Source of the DNA: Nitrospirales bacterium
Lineage (GTDB): Bacteria; Nitrospirota; Nitrospiria; Nitrospirales; UBA8639
DNA length: 64,000 nucleotides
Assembly: GCA_029261355.1 (NCBI GenBank)
Contig: JAJDBM010000002.1
Location: 62,001-126,000 of the forward strand
Direction of reading: 5' to 3'
Below are positions 57,311 through 63,891 of this stretch, one piece after another. How positions within the stretch are numbered: position 1 is the stretch's first letter; every line of letters begins with the position of its first letter. The position numbers and the translations under genes are program-made. The notes under the pieces are model-generated. The model had not been told where the DNA came from and made no database searches. It was given only the letters and a program-made list of their open reading frames with translations.

Positions 57311-57673
57311 GTGGACGAAAGGTTGAGAAACGCACTTCCCAATGCATCGATCCACCAACTATCAGGTTGTATTTCTGACAGGACAATATTTGTGAATGAT
57401 CTCAAAGAACTTTGGCAGATTCACCAGGACGCACGTTGGCCAGACTCGTTAGATGGAGCTGAAGGTCAATTGATGATGTTGGATACGGTGATTGTCGGAT
57501 GTATCACCTATTATGAAGAAGAGCAAGAATTGGACAGCCAAAGAATCGTTATTCTTCAGGACAGTCTGTCGGAGTTAGATGAGCTGTTGGTTGATTTGTC
57601 AGATGAGGGGATGGAGTATTTTTCACGATTACGGCAACTGGGTCATCTTATTCTCAATGGGACTTCACAATAG
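57311..57673 (+). CDS. small acidic orphan protein
   Basis: A 120-residue protein with a GTG start. The last ~60 residues are acidic and helical (LDSQRIVILQDSLSELDELLVDLSDEGMEYFSRLRQLGHLIL), and the first part has two cysteines. GAGG lies about 6 bases upstream of the start. It ends 3 bases before the CHAT gene, so they are almost certainly cotranscribed. Function unknown; an inhibitor or adaptor of the CHAT protein is a guess from context only. Confidence 0.6.
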   Translation: MDERLRNALPNASIHQLSGCISDRTIFVNDLKELWQIHQDARWPDSLDGAEGQLMMLDTVIVGCITYYEEEQELDSQRIVILQDSLSELDELLVDLSDEGMEYFSRLRQLGHLILNGTSQ

Positions 57674-57676
57674 CTG

Positions 57677-60064
57677 ATGCTGTCATATAAGACAGATCTA
57701 TTGATGGGGCACTGCTATCGGGCTTTATCCTTTTTTCGTAAACGGTTATGGTCTTCTATTCCGATTTGTGTGCTGATATTCTCGACTTCGATACTCGTGA
57801 ATGTTTGTGCCGAAGCAGCTGAATCGACGGATCAGGATGATGTGATGGAGTTGGGGCAATGGCATTTTGCTCAAGGTCATTTTCCTCAAGCTGCTCAGGC
57901 TTGGGAACAAGCGGCCCGAAGGTTTGAGGCAGAGAAGCGTTTCGATGAACAGGCACAGGCCCTGTTGTATTTTTCTGAGGCTTTGTACCATCTTGGGCAT
58001 TATCGACGAGCTACCGTATCGCTTCAATTGGCTCACCAGATAGCCAGTGAAGTCCCCAATTTTTTACTAATTTCCCAGATTCTTGGTCGATTGGGCAATG
58101 TCGCTTTCGCCTTGGGCCTCGAAACAGATGCTGAAGAGTATTTGACGACGGCGCTATCCAGAGCCAGAGCATTGGAAAACTCAGCTTTGATTGCCACCAT
58201 TTTAAATGATCGAGGTAATGTTTTAGCTTCGCAAAAACGATATAGCGAGGCTCTTGGCGCATTTACTGAATCAACAGTCTTAGGCGATGCCATTGGTCAT
58301 CATTCGCTAGCGGTGACGGCATTGATTAATGCTGCCTGGAGTTCGCTGTTAGAGGGCCAGTTGACAGCTAGCAAAGACCGACTTGATTTAGCCGTTGTGC
58401 AAGTAACCGTACTTGAGGAGTCGCATGAAAAGTCCCAAAAACTCCTCAGTATTGGATTGGCGTATGACCGGCTTCGTCAATTGCTTCAACCCACAAATTT
58501 CAAAATAATGAGACAATCAGCAGCAGCGTTTCAATCGTCTGCTGAAATGGCCCATCGAATCAAAGACCATCGAACCGCTTCCTACGGATGGGGGCATTTA
58601 GGGCATTTATACGAAGAGGAAGGACGAATTCCTGAAGCTCTTGAACTCACGCGTCGTGCTATTCATGCTGCCCAACAAAGCGTAACGCCTCAATCGCTCT
58701 ATCAATGGGAATGGCAAGCTGGTCGGCTCTTGCGTGGACAAGGAAAAAGAGACGAAGCCATATTAGCCTATCGTCGGGCTACCTATACGCTTCAGCCGCT
58801 TCGCAATGAAGTGAGTCAAGGTTTTCCGCATCATTCCAAAACCTTCCGCGAGGGAGTGAGTCCACTTTTCTATGAATTAGTGGATCTCCTGCTGACCCAG
58901 GCAGATGGCGAGACAGACGAACTCGTGACTCAAGATATTCTAGGGAATGCACGGCGGACGATGGAACAATTTAAAACGGCTGAATTGCAAGACTATTTTC
59001 GTGACAACTGTGTAGAAGCGTCACTCGCAAAGAAAACGAATGTTGATGAGATCGTGAAAGGTCTGAAGCACACGGCAGTCGTGTATCCCATTCTTTTACC
59101 TGACCGTATGGAGTTACTCATTAGTGTTCATGATGGAGACAAGGCAGAATTGAAGAGGGAACGTGTTCAGGTCACGTCAGAGATGTTATCAAAAGAAGTG
59201 CGAATCTTGAGAAGACTGCTGGAGAAACGTACATCGCGTGAGTATTTGCCTCACGCCCAGCAAGTTTACACGTGGTTGATTCAACCTATTCGTCATTATT
59301 TACAAGAGTATGAGATTCACACTCTCGTCTTCGTGCCAGATGGGCCATTGCGGACTATTCCATTAGGTGCATTGCATGATGGCAAAGAGTTTCTTATTAG
59401 CCAGTACGCCCTGGCGATCACTCCAGGGATTGACCTCACGGATCCGCAACCTATCAATCGAGAAAAAATTAAACTCCTTTCTGTGGGATTAACCGATTCA
59501 GTGCAAGGCTTTCCATCTTTGCCGAATGTGGCATCTGAGATTCAGGCACTCAATGATCTGTATGGAGGGAGAGTGATGTTGAATCAACAGTTTCTCCTGG
59601 ATGATCTTGAGGATGAGATGAAAGATGATCGTCCGAGCATCGTCCATATTGCTTCCCATGCGAAATTTGATGGGGAGGCCAAGAACACTTTTCTTCTGGC
59701 ATTCGATGAGAAATTGACGATGGATCGATTAGATGAATTGATAGGTCTCTACCAATTTCGAGAAACTCCTCTGGACTTATTAACTCTCAGCGCATGTGAA
59801 ACGGCAGCGGGTGACGATCGTGCGGCTCTTGGGTTGGCGGGCGTCGCTGTCAAGGCAGGAGCACGAAGTGCCCTGGCATCATTATGGTTCATTAATGATA
59901 AGGCGACCTCGGAACTGATCACGGAGTTTTATCGTCAATTGCAAGATGAAAACCTGTCCAAGGCCGTGGCTCTACAAAATGCCAAATTGAAAATCATGCA
60001 GCACCCCACCTATCAACATCCTGGATATTGGTCCCCATTTCTCCTTATCAATAATTGGCTCTGA
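57677..60064 (+). CDS. exported TPR-CHAT caspase-like protein
   Basis: A 795-residue protein. Residues ~20-48 (LWSSIPICVLIFSTSILVNVCAEA) are a signal peptide, so it should be periplasmic. About 50-430 is a series of tetratricopeptide-like repeats (QWHFAQGHFPQAAQAWEQAA, DEQAQALLYFSEALYHLGHYRRA, AILAYRRATYTLQP). About 470-795 is a CHAT domain with the His-Cys dyad IASH661 and SAC707ET, followed by AGVAVKAGARSALASLW and the typical GYWSPFLLINNW ending. CHAT domains are caspase/separase-type cysteine proteases. Its neighbours suggest a role in signalling. Confidence 0.9.
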   Translation: MLSYKTDLLMGHCYRALSFFRKRLWSSIPICVLIFSTSILVNVCAEAAESTDQDDVMELGQWHFAQGHFPQAAQAWEQAARRFEAEKRFDEQAQALLYFSEALYHLGHYRRATVSLQLAHQIASEVPNFLLISQILGRLGNVAFALGLETDAEEYLTTALSRARALENSALIATILNDRGNVLASQKRYSEALGAFTESTVLGDAIGHHSLAVTALINAAWSSLLEGQLTASKDRLDLAVVQVTVLEESHEKSQKLLSIGLAYDRLRQLLQPTNFKIMRQSAAAFQSSAEMAHRIKDHRTASYGWGHLGHLYEEEGRIPEALELTRRAIHAAQQSVTPQSLYQWEWQAGRLLRGQGKRDEAILAYRRATYTLQPLRNEVSQGFPHHSKTFREGVSPLFYELVDLLLTQADGETDELVTQDILGNARRTMEQFKTAELQDYFRDNCVEASLAKKTNVDEIVKGLKHTAVVYPILLPDRMELLISVHDGDKAELKRERVQVTSEMLSKEVRILRRLLEKRTSREYLPHAQQVYTWLIQPIRHYLQEYEIHTLVFVPDGPLRTIPLGALHDGKEFLISQYALAITPGIDLTDPQPINREKIKLLSVGLTDSVQGFPSLPNVASEIQALNDLYGGRVMLNQQFLLDDLEDEMKDDRPSIVHIASHAKFDGEAKNTFLLAFDEKLTMDRLDELIGLYQFRETPLDLLTLSACETAAGDDRAALGLAGVAVKAGARSALASLWFINDKATSELITEFYRQLQDENLSKAVALQNAKLKIMQHPTYQHPGYWSPFLLINNWL

Positions 60065-60243
60065 TCCTACAGCTTTTTGGAGGTGACCGTTGGAGCGTAC
60101 CCTCAGTGATTATTTTCTGGAGGGCCGGTCGGCAAGCTCCCTTCCGTATATAAGGATGGGGGTTTTCAGGGAAATCAACAAGCGTTGGGGAATCATTGTG
60201 TTTGTATGCGATTCATAGCCAACTCATTTTCGATAAAATAGGT

Positions 60244-62172
60244 ATGACTTCCCTGCGTTCCGTCCTTTGGTCTACTCCAGTTCGTGTGCTTGTCATAGGT
60301 CTGCTCGTGAGCCTGGCGGTGATTTTTAGTCGTCAGTTTGGACTGCTTGAGCCATTAGAGTTAGCCGCCTACGACTGGACAGTGAGGCTTGCCCCATCTC
60401 CTGTTGGTCCAGACCCTCGTATCGTCTTGATTACCATCACAGAAGAAGACCTTCAGTCTCTTGGGCAGTGGCCCCTCTCAGATGAGCTTATTGCCAGGGC
60501 CTTGGAAATTCTAACGGGATATGGTGCCCGAACGATTGGTCTTGACCTGTATCGTGACAGAGAAGTTTTGCCTGGAAGAGAGGAATTAAACGCGGTCTTG
60601 AGCCAACATTCAGAAATTGTGACGGTGATGAAATTTCCTGATCAGGAGGGAAAGGGAGTGCCTGGTCCACTGGTTTTACAAGGCACCGATCAAATTGGAT
60701 TCAATGACATTCTTGTCGATCGTGGAGGCATTGTTCGAAGAGGGTTCCTTTTTTTGGAGAATCAGGAAGGCACAGCCACATCATTTTCCTTGTTATTAGC
60801 CATGAAATATTTGGAACACGAGGGGATCGTGCCTGTCCCAGACCCATCGCATCCTGAATTGATGAGAATAGGGACAACAACGATTCCTCGATTTTACCCG
60901 AACGACGGCAGTTATGTGGGAAGTGATGCCAAAGGCTATCAACTGTTGGTGAAGTTTTCAGGGAAGCAGGAAGCATTTCCGCAATTTACACTGACAGAAT
61001 TATTGAATGGAACAATGAATCAAGCCGTGGTGAAGGATAAGGTGGTGGTGATTGGATCATCTGCGGAAAGTGTGAGAGATGATTTTTACACTCCGTATAG
61101 TCGGAGCCGAGGCAAGCGACAACAAATGTCGGGGATGGAACTCCATGCCCATTTCATCAATCAGTTGCTGCGAATGGCGTTGATGCATGATCGTCCGATT
61201 CGTTCTCTCCCTGAAGGATTAGAAGTTTGCTGGGTGCTCATATGGGGTGGTCTGGGAGGGCTCTTGGCATTAGGACTATTTTCTCCTTGGCGACTGATCT
61301 TTTTTCTGAGTGCAGGGGTTGGAGGTCTTCTCGTTTTCGTGTATTGGCTATTTCTTGCGAGTTGGTGGATTCCTTTGATTTCTCCGGCACTGGCCTGGGT
61401 GTTGGCTGGCAGTGTCGCCACCGCATGGATATCTAAGCAATATAGACAGGAGCGGATGTTGCTGATGCAATTATTTTCGCAGCATGTGTCTACTGAGGTG
61501 GCTGAGACGATATGGGCTGCACGAGAACAATTGGTTCAGGATGGACGCATTCGACCAAGAAAGATCACTGCCACGGTGCTGTTTGTAGATCTTGAAGGGT
61601 TTACCGCTATGGCGGAACATGTCGACCCCGAAGCCCTGATGGAGTGGCTCAACACCTATCTCATGTCCATGACAAATGTGATTGTGGCGCATAAGGGTGT
61701 GGTTGATGATTTTTTTGGAGATGGAGTGAAGGCAAACTTTGGTGTGCCATTGGAACAGAGGCAAGGCAGTGATATACGCCAAGATGCCATGAATGCTGTG
61801 CAATGCGGATTGGCCTTATTCAAGGAGATCCAATGTTTGAATCAACGTCTCCCTCAACAAGCCATTCCTATCGGGAGAGTGAGAATCGGCATTGCCACTG
61901 GATCGGTGGTGGTCGGGACGGTGGGGAATGCGCAACGATTAAAATATACATCAGTCGGAGATATTGTGAATATTGCTGCACGCTTAGAGCAATTAGGGAA
62001 GGACCCGTCTATCGCATCTAGGACTCAAGGTATTGGAAGTCTATTCGTGAATGAGGATACCCATGCCTATTTAGATGCTCGCTGGGTAACAGAGGAAATT
62101 GGACCAGTGAATCTTTCTGGTAGGCAGGAGCCTGTTACGGTCTATCGAGTGGTGAGAGGACCATCCGAATAA
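60244..62172 (+). CDS. CHASE2 transmembrane adenylate/guanylate cyclase
   Basis: A 642-residue protein from the ATG at 60244. An N-terminal helix (VRVLVIGLLVSLAVIFS) leads into a periplasmic CHASE2 sensor (~35-320, LAAYDWTVRLAP, IVLITITEEDLQSLGQWPLSDE, MSGMELHAHFINQLLRM), then three membrane helices (~335-400) and a class III nucleotide cyclase domain: TVLFVDLEGFTAMAEHV with the metal-binding Asp, DDFFGDGVKANFG with the second Asp, and RIGIATGSVVVGTVGNAQRLKYTSVGDIVNIAARLEQ. ATP or GTP preference is not certain. It lies 179 bases after the CHAT gene on the same strand. Confidence 0.9.
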   Translation: MTSLRSVLWSTPVRVLVIGLLVSLAVIFSRQFGLLEPLELAAYDWTVRLAPSPVGPDPRIVLITITEEDLQSLGQWPLSDELIARALEILTGYGARTIGLDLYRDREVLPGREELNAVLSQHSEIVTVMKFPDQEGKGVPGPLVLQGTDQIGFNDILVDRGGIVRRGFLFLENQEGTATSFSLLLAMKYLEHEGIVPVPDPSHPELMRIGTTTIPRFYPNDGSYVGSDAKGYQLLVKFSGKQEAFPQFTLTELLNGTMNQAVVKDKVVVIGSSAESVRDDFYTPYSRSRGKRQQMSGMELHAHFINQLLRMALMHDRPIRSLPEGLEVCWVLIWGGLGGLLALGLFSPWRLIFFLSAGVGGLLVFVYWLFLASWWIPLISPALAWVLAGSVATAWISKQYRQERMLLMQLFSQHVSTEVAETIWAAREQLVQDGRIRPRKITATVLFVDLEGFTAMAEHVDPEALMEWLNTYLMSMTNVIVAHKGVVDDFFGDGVKANFGVPLEQRQGSDIRQDAMNAVQCGLALFKEIQCLNQRLPQQAIPIGRVRIGIATGSVVVGTVGNAQRLKYTSVGDIVNIAARLEQLGKDPSIASRTQGIGSLFVNEDTHAYLDARWVTEEIGPVNLSGRQEPVTVYRVVRGPSE

Positions 62173-62271: not shown

Positions 62272-63891
62272 TTAGGATTCGCTATAGTATTTGAGGCGAG
62301 ACGATTCACGAGCGCCGGGTATTTTTCCGAGGGAACGGCTTGATGCAGAGTCAATGCCTAATCGTTTCATTTTCTTAATCAGGCCCTGCCGGCTGAGCCC
62401 TAGAAGTTTGGCTGTTTGAACTTGATTGGAGTGGCAGGTTTCCAAGGCTTCTCGAATCATCTGTTCTTCTAATTGAGCAACTGCTTGCGGAAGTGTAAGG
62501 GAGCCCTGCGTGAGTCTTCTCGAGGCCGAGTGTTTTTGAGATCGAATATGGTTTTCTAAATCCTGCTCGGTGATCATCACTTTTCTGATGACTGCAACCA
62601 TCCGTTTCATTTCATTTTCGAGTTCTCGCACATTGCCTGGCCAATGATAGGTCTGTAAGGTCCGCAGCGCCTTAGGACTCAAGTATTTTTCCTCTTTCTG
62701 CATCTGCCGACAATTCAACGACAAAAAATGAGCAGCAAGAAGAGGGATATCTTCGGGGACATCTCGTAGAGATGGTGTATGGATGTGAACAACTTTGAGG
62801 CGATAATAGAGGTCATGCCGAAATGTACCCTGATGAATCTGGTCCTCAAGGTTTTTATTCGTGGCGGCAATGATTCTGACGTCTACAGAATGATCCGTTT
62901 GTCCTCCGACGGGTTGGAACGAACGTTCTTGCAAGACTCGCAAAATCTTTGCTTGAGCATTGCTTTCAAGATCCCCAATCTCGTCAAGAAATAATGTCCC
63001 CCCATTGGCTTGTTCAAACTTCCCGATCCGAGCTTCAACTCCTGTTGCGACACCGCGTTTAATCCCGAGTAGTTCACTCTCTAATAGATGTTGGGGAATG
63101 GCGGCACAGTTTAAGGCGACGAACGGTTTCTTTGCTCGTGCACTCGTATAGTGAAGCGCTTTAGCAACTAACTCTTTTCCAGTGCCGCTTTCCCCGGTTA
63201 TCAGAACATCAACCAAGCTATCGCGTATTTGGTCAATGAGTCGAATTATTCCTTGTACGTGTAAGCTGGTGCCAATCAGGTGTTGCGTAGAAAACCGTCC
63301 TTCAATTTCCTTCAATAGCTGGGTGTTTTCATCGACTAATTGCTGCTGTTGTGTTTTGAGTTCTTGGACCGTTTGAACGGATTCAATGCTCAGTGCTGCT
63401 TGTTCGGCCAGGGCAGAACCTATGGCTTCATCCTGCTGTGAGAATGTACCCTGAATTTTATTCATGACTTCCAATACGCCCAGGACTTCTTGGTTTTGTG
63501 TTTTGAGTGGAATAGCCAGAAGGGTGCGCGTGCGCTTTTTGGAGCGGGTGTCGATATCGCTGTAAAATCTAGAGTCCTGTTGAACGTCTGGAATGTTGAG
63601 TAATGTACCGCTGAGAGCGACGGCGCCGGCAATGCCAAGGCGTGCGTCAAAACGAATCATGGCTCCATCAAGGGAAATATATGACCAGAGTTCGCAGCGA
63701 TCGCGGTCAAAGAGGAGCAGACTCGCATCTTTAGCTGAAAGATGATGTTTTGCTTCCTTTGCAATAAGGAGAAGGAGGGATGGAAGGTCTTGCTGAGCCC
63801 CCATTTTTTGGCACAGTGAGAGGAATGATTGTAGTGAGTCCAAGGATGGCTTTGTTTTTTGTTGTTTTTGATTATTTCGCGGCGCCATCAA
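62272..63891 (-). CDS. GAF-AAA-Fis regulator of the sigma-54 activator family
   Basis: A 539-residue protein with an N-terminal GAF domain (~35-185), a coiled-coil linker, an AAA+ domain (~205-435) with Walker A GESGTGKELVAKALH, Walker B GGTLFLDEIGDL and the sensor segment DVRIIAATNKNL, and a C-terminal Fis helix-turn-helix (TAKLLGLSRQGLIKKMKRLGI). The loop that normally reads GAFTGA and contacts sigma-54 reads GVATGV at 280-285, preceded by LGIKRG in place of FGHEKG. It may still act with sigma-54 or by another route. The GAF domain implies control by a bound small molecule. Confidence 0.92.
   Translation of the reverse strand: MMAPRNNQKQQKTKPSLDSLQSFLSLCQKMGAQQDLPSLLLLIAKEAKHHLSAKDASLLLFDRDRCELWSYISLDGAMIRFDARLGIAGAVALSGTLLNIPDVQQDSRFYSDIDTRSKKRTRTLLAIPLKTQNQEVLGVLEVMNKIQGTFSQQDEAIGSALAEQAALSIESVQTVQELKTQQQQLVDENTQLLKEIEGRFSTQHLIGTSLHVQGIIRLIDQIRDSLVDVLITGESGTGKELVAKALHYTSARAKKPFVALNCAAIPQHLLESELLGIKRGVATGVEARIGKFEQANGGTLFLDEIGDLESNAQAKILRVLQERSFQPVGGQTDHSVDVRIIAATNKNLEDQIHQGTFRHDLYYRLKVVHIHTPSLRDVPEDIPLLAAHFLSLNCRQMQKEEKYLSPKALRTLQTYHWPGNVRELENEMKRMVAVIRKVMITEQDLENHIRSQKHSASRRLTQGSLTLPQAVAQLEEQMIREALETCHSNQVQTAKLLGLSRQGLIKKMKRLGIDSASSRSLGKIPGARESSRLKYYSES

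Follow-up and report, generated by a model that had tools for sequence, protein, structure and literature searches.

A predicted exported TPR-CHAT peptidase and a CHASE2 nucleotide cyclase linked to two-partner-secretion genes in a Nitrospirales genome

Gene content of the region

The window of this study is a stretch of 64,000 nucleotides (C2:62001-126000) from a source genome of 4.63 Mb, whose closest relatives are Nitrospirales MAGs. The three open reading frames named in the original prediction, for a small protein, a CHAT protein and a CHASE2 cyclase, were all found at the positions given there, and the CHAT and cyclase genes are real and linked. The end of the cluster at 62172 proved to be wrong, since a GAF-sigma54 gene, a DUF928 gene and two TpsA genes come after it, mostly outside the window. 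Two starts were also revised: the small-protein orthologues begin MNDL..., which corresponds to GTG 57392 and a product of 93 aa, making the earlier start at 57311 too early, and the cyclase start called at 60196 lies too far upstream, as orthologues favour ATG 60244. A regional scan for sigma70 promoters and terminators gave counts no higher than shuffled sequence. The features recognized are as follows.

57392..57673, + strand: small acidic four-helix protein, 93 aa (start from orthologues); a neighbour, probably outside the system
57677..60064, + strand: predicted exported TPR-CHAT cysteine peptidase, 795 aa (Pfam TPR and CHAT; orthologues; fold like Craspase TPR-CHAT and separase)
57677..57817, + strand: predicted signal peptide, residues 1-47, AEA-A (hydrophobic segment 27-45; signal-like N-terminus in relatives)
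57839..58999, + strand: TPR superhelix, about residues 55-441 (Pfam, predicted helices)
59657..59659, + strand: codon of catalytic His661 (invariant 79/79)
59795..59797, + strand: codon of catalytic Cys707, in LSACET (invariant 79/79)
60244..62172, + strand: CHASE2-class III nucleotide cyclase, 642 aa from ATG 60244 (Pfam CHASE2 and Guanylate_cyc; orthologue starts; the ORF opens at 60196)
61708..61710, + strand: codon of Asp505 (ORF numbering), the base-recognition position, Lys in adenylate cyclases (alignments to CyaB and Cya2)
62272..63891, - strand: GAF-sigma54 AAA+-Fis activator gene, convergent with the cyclase gene (Pfam)
63427..63462, - strand: NKFDE-type motif in the GAF domain, NKIQGTFSQQDE (family comparison)

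The CHAT protein and its neighbours

The CHAT domain was matched by Pfam at 194.8 bits against a cut-off of 24, together with TPR repeats, and with its His/Cys dyad the protein belongs to the CHAT clan CD peptidases. It displays a single hydrophobic segment (residues 27-45) followed by the AEA-A site, and a signal-like hydrophobic N-terminus was noticed in 72 of 76 CHAT relatives, in agreement with the signal peptide claimed at the outset. The claimed numbering of the dyad was likewise correct; none of the 79 aligned CHAT sequences departs from His661, Cys707 or the preceding Ser705. This invariance argues against the protein being a TPR chaperone or scaffold for TpsA/TpsB, with a caspase-like domain that is structural rather than proteolytic. 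We regard that alternative as improbable, even though position 662, directly after the catalytic His, is occupied by Gly in 72 and Ala in 5 sequences of the alignment, with Ala in the window's own genus and Gly in most others, and even though the active-site region of the model (residues 660-736) has a pLDDT below 50, too poor for measuring the dyad distance.

The overall predicted fold resembles the Craspase TPR-CHAT protein (Csx29) and separase in structure comparison, and the cyclase domain matches PADLOC PycC models, both of which would fit a defence or cell-suicide system of Craspase or Pycsar type. Such a system is very improbable here, because the CHAT protein has a predicted signal peptide and conserved secretion neighbours instead, PADLOC names no defence system for it, and the PycC matches are probably due to class III homology in general. 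Identity of the CHAT protein with Craspase Csx29 itself was rejected, as the Csx29 model gave 11.8 bits against a cut-off of 300 and no Cas7-11 gene occurred among the neighbours examined. The TPS secretion domain PF05860 was absent from the window CHAT protein by Pfam; one Acaryochloris relative harbors it, fused to TPR-CHAT. Separately, several family genomes were seen to encode proteins of about 2,600 residues in which PD40 repeats and many TPRs are combined with a CHAT domain at the C-terminus (L049:1326-9116).

With regard to the small protein, the original prediction had a 120-residue acidic product ending 3 bases before the CHAT gene; the gap is as described, but the length is not, and in relatives the gap ranges from 22 to 96 bp by ORF coordinates. 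Its AlphaFold model is a four-helix fold (pLDDT 93) with no significant PDB fold match, and the protein had no match in Pfam, NCBIfam or PADLOC and none among the plasmids searched. The gene is near-universal and single-copy in the family, occurring in 46 of 48 genomes, of which 26 are without a CHAT orthologue (association p 0.81), and its usual neighbours are gpmA, small membrane-protein genes and the Mrp ATPase gene (mrp). For this reason we place it outside the unit. A role as dedicated regulator of CHAT or the cyclase, proposed earlier from its position and consistent with its place directly upstream of CHAT in three genera, was not borne out and is hardly credible given this distribution and the lack of a hydrophobic export segment in the protein. 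In the window genome, mrp lies approximately 27 kb downstream of the small-protein gene, beyond the CHAT-TPS island, and the adjacency of the small gene to CHAT therefore fits island insertion; in genome G016, the small gene retains its upstream gpmA neighbourhood and is then followed by CHAT-CHASE2. The simplest reading is that the CHAT-TPS island was inserted beside a resident small-protein gene, which is a bystander at the island edge. No tRNA was found at the island in locus L123. Past DUF928, the island also contains genes (L123:8547-14605) whose products carry MPAB/Lcp (rubber oxygenase-like), cytochrome c/RoxA-like and GMC oxidoreductase domains.

The predicted co-occurrence of three genes held for two of them: the CHASE2 cyclase was detected in 18 of 21 CHAT-bearing family genomes (Fisher p 3e-9, kinship ignored), the small protein showing no such association. 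DUF928 was found in 19 of the 21 (p 3e-10, kinship ignored). Taking the three genes as the unit missed the main partner, namely the two-partner-secretion genes, together with DUF928 and the GAF-sigma54 activator. By Pfam, the typical order around CHAT orthologues is TpsA-TpsB-CHAT-(CHASE2)-DUF928. Genes within 6 kb of CHAT were counted at the 38 loci, mainly from Nitrospira, whose flanks extend 6 kb or more to both sides: TpsB was present at 35, TpsA at 34, DUF928 at 32 and at least one of these at 37; MAGs labelled Verrucomicrobia, Rokubacteria and Acidobacteria are possibly mis-binned and were given no weight. Two-partner secretion, recognized by nearby TpsA (TPS domain) and TpsB (ShlB/FhaC) genes, is thus encoded beside CHAT in the relatives. 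In the window genome, the island with CHAT continues downstream with DUF928 and the genome's two TPS-domain (TpsA) genes, and TpsB lies on a different contig beside an OmpA-like gene. The order TpsB-CHAT-CHASE2 cyclase-DUF928 recurs in Nitrospira lenta, Desulfobacterales bin36 and others; among the loci with this order is a Desulfobacterales chromosome (L212), whose cyclase was checked by Pfam. In Nitrospira proper, most CHAT-TPS operons are without the CHASE2 cyclase, so it is not obligatory; these cyclase-less operons have a HAMP-GAF histidine kinase and a REC-sigma54 protein as their regulators.

Related clusters were also noticed in Cyanobacteria, where plasmids of Pseudanabaena, Gloeothece, Planktothrix and Anabaena cylindrica harbor CHAT relatives with DUF928 and CHASE2 genes, accompanied by TpsA in three and TpsB in two of these four clusters. 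Of three more plasmid regions, that of Acaryochloris had DUF928 only, and those of Nostoc and Pseudanabaena PCC 7367 had none of the set. The CHASE2 proteins of the cyanobacterial clusters carry a C-terminal histidine kinase (two), an AAA_35 domain or, as a CHAT-CHASE2 fusion in Anabaena cylindrica, a CHAT domain. Since the outputs differ, CHASE2 appears as a recurrent sensor with a changing output. A 2012 paper noted a fusion of CHASE2 with a metacaspase in Trichodesmium (PMC3501461).

How closely protease and sensor are tied is a separate matter. CHAT may process exoproteins and CHASE2 may sense an unrelated cue, for example through an NsrA-like outer-membrane protein, both serving the TPS surface system with no direct link between them. 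This arrangement is consistent with the cyclase lying 10-20 kb from CHAT in several genomes, there usually beside the GAF-sigma54 gene, with the many CHAT-TPS operons that have no CHASE2, and with the CHASE2 cyclases of S. meliloti, which receive an outer-membrane signal via NsrA and function without a known CHAT protein (PMC13001267). The adjacency of CHAT and CHASE2 cyclase genes in several genera and one Desulfobacterales genome, the Anabaena cylindrica fusion and the strong co-occurrence of CHAT and cyclase speak against it, and we judge such parallel roles unlikely, while taking them seriously.

The CHASE2 cyclase and the sigma54 activator

The cyclase gene gave Pfam scores far over the cut-off for both CHASE2 (203 bits) and Guanylate_cyc (65.8 bits). 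The CHASE2 domain follows one TM helix and precedes a C-terminal TM bundle, as in CHASE2 receptors, and the transmembrane pattern is predicted to place CHASE2 outside and the cyclase inside, which agrees with the periplasm-facing sensor first suggested. The two metal-binding residues, Asp465 and Asp509, and the pair Asn592/Arg596 show no variation across the alignment, which identifies a class III cyclase. The adenine-recognition Lys of class III adenylate cyclases (cAMP) is absent; Asp505 stands in its place, the reference residues being Lys in CyaB and Glu in Synechocystis Cya2. Among the CHAT-linked cyclases, this position is Asp in 21 of 23, Gln and Arg in the remaining two and never Lys, the count leaving out the L083 and L130 rows (one truncated or misaligned protein) and L101 being a separate degenerate paralogue group. 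By comparison, nine CHASE2 cyclases outside the cluster, one of them in the window genome, retain the Lys, and the CHAT-linked cyclases form a distinct clade. Guanylyl cyclases have Glu in place of Lys, with C, S, T, H, A or G as partner (PMC4215837); the second base-recognition residue of the window cyclase is Thr. Because the adenine-recognition Lys is replaced by Asp, the product of the window clade is probably not cAMP alone, and from its sequence the cyclase probably makes cGMP or another non-cAMP nucleotide; Asp is shorter than Glu, and cGMP is therefore a prediction only. The absent lysine, which speaks against a simple cAMP output, was missed in the original prediction.

Other cyclase-related genes were also disclosed. 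In related genomes, a class II cyclic-nucleotide phosphodiesterase-like gene lies near the CHASE2 cyclase gene (L103:2823-3638 and L135:5361-6152), which suggests a synthesis/degradation pair, and a second CHASE2-cyclase paralogue with a degenerate-looking cyclase motif (VDLKEDSI) lies beside GAF-kinase genes (L103:7161-9479). The second CHASE2 cyclase of the window genome, with the canonical Lys, is found near a sigma54 paralogue (L125:537-11111), and a sigma54-like site lies at L125:5984.

Next to the cyclase gene, here and in most relatives, lies a gene whose product is by Pfam a GAF-AAA-Fis sigma54 activator. The NKFDE pattern was recognized in seven of the nine sigma54-activator GAFs of the family, the window's own included; NKFDE-like motifs also occur widely in GAFs that are not cyclic-nucleotide binders. 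In each of the four clusters examined, a sigma54-type site, TGGCA-Y-N5-TTGC, was detected ahead of the divergent DUF928 gene, with six matches in 372 kb of strand-counted DNA against approximately 0.5 expected, an expectation that is arithmetic from equal base frequencies and not a shuffle. The window genome also encodes an 879 aa fusion of a CHASE2 sensor with a sigma54 AAA+ domain (L126:7572-10211), in which no DNA-binding domain was matched, and CHASE2-matching open frames of about this length occur in many relatives. In view of this fusion, direct wiring from CHASE2 to sigma54 is possible.

Proposed mechanism and comparison with known systems

TpsB proteins are established, for their families, as exporters of large filamentous TpsA proteins to the cell surface. 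With this background, the reading we favour, at somewhat short of even confidence, is an envelope module: CHAT would mature or trim TPS exoproteins, and the CHASE2 cyclase would report the state of the envelope to a sigma54 switch. TpsA would be carried to the surface by TpsB. The signal peptide would export the TPR-CHAT protein, whose TPR superhelix would bind a substrate in the envelope, the likeliest being a TpsA exoprotein still in transit, and the His/Cys dyad would cut it, resulting in maturation, release or clearance. The CHASE2 sensor, in the same compartment, may read this process directly or via DUF928 or an OmpA-like protein, and the cytoplasmic cyclase would then make a cyclic nucleotide, probably cGMP or another non-cAMP nucleotide judging from the Lys-to-Asp change. 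This nucleotide could be read by the GAF-sigma54 activator, which would switch on the DUF928 operon from its sigma54 promoter. Elsewhere, the CHASE2 output is a histidine kinase or AAA domain, or the HAMP-GAF-kinase and REC-sigma54 pair stands in for the cyclase and GAF-sigma54 activator.

In a wider sense, we tentatively propose, as a possibility rather than an expectation, a previously undescribed modular envelope surveillance system in Nitrospirota, Cyanobacteria and at least one Desulfobacterales genome, where an exported CHAT protease acts on TPS exoproteins and a CHASE2 sensor has interchangeable outputs, here a guanylate-type cyclase read by GAF-sigma54. Among the caspase-like CHAT proteases that are widespread in complex bacteria, few have a known job; a tie to TPS and a periplasm-facing sensor would give them a concrete role beyond cell death and CRISPR. 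If true, Nitrospira-like bacteria and cyanobacteria would connect the quality control of their surface proteins with regulation by cyclic nucleotides and sigma54, and the Lys-to-Asp clade would be a candidate for a cGMP (or other non-cAMP) pathway in bacteria. In the open-access literature, with subscription journals mostly outside the search, we found no paper pairing any two of CHAT domain, CHASE2 and two-partner secretion, nor the CHAT domain with hemagglutinin.

Comparatively, LapG/LapD adhesin control combines a periplasmic cysteine protease, a surface adhesin and an inner-membrane nucleotide-linked protein; it is a works-like parallel only, with unrelated proteins and not a family member, and here the signal would run outside-in. 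Craspase TPR-CHAT (Csx29) and separase also place a CHAT/clan CD His-Cys peptidase domain after a TPR or helical superhelix, but are cytoplasmic and tied to CRISPR RNA or cohesin, whereas the window CHAT protein is predicted to be exported and is tied to TPS secretion. HetF of Anabaena is also a TPR/CHAT putative protease in the envelope, but it is a membrane divisome protein with an N-terminal CHAT domain, and no TPS or CHASE2 link was seen in the parts of the source consulted (PMC8406250). S. meliloti CyaD1/CyaD2/CyaK with NsrA are likewise CHASE2-class III cyclases fed by an outer-membrane signal (PMC13001267); the window cyclase shares approximately 25% identity with CyaK, its clade is without the adenylate-cyclase Lys, and its reader is probably GAF-sigma54 where that of S. 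meliloti is the CRP-type Clr. The cyanobacterial TPS-CHAT-DUF928-CHASE2 clusters have the identical gene set, with CHASE2 bearing HK, AAA_35 or CHAT and not a cyclase. The CHAT-TPS-CHASE2 system is therefore best filed as one built from known parts, in which the fold is known and the setting differs.
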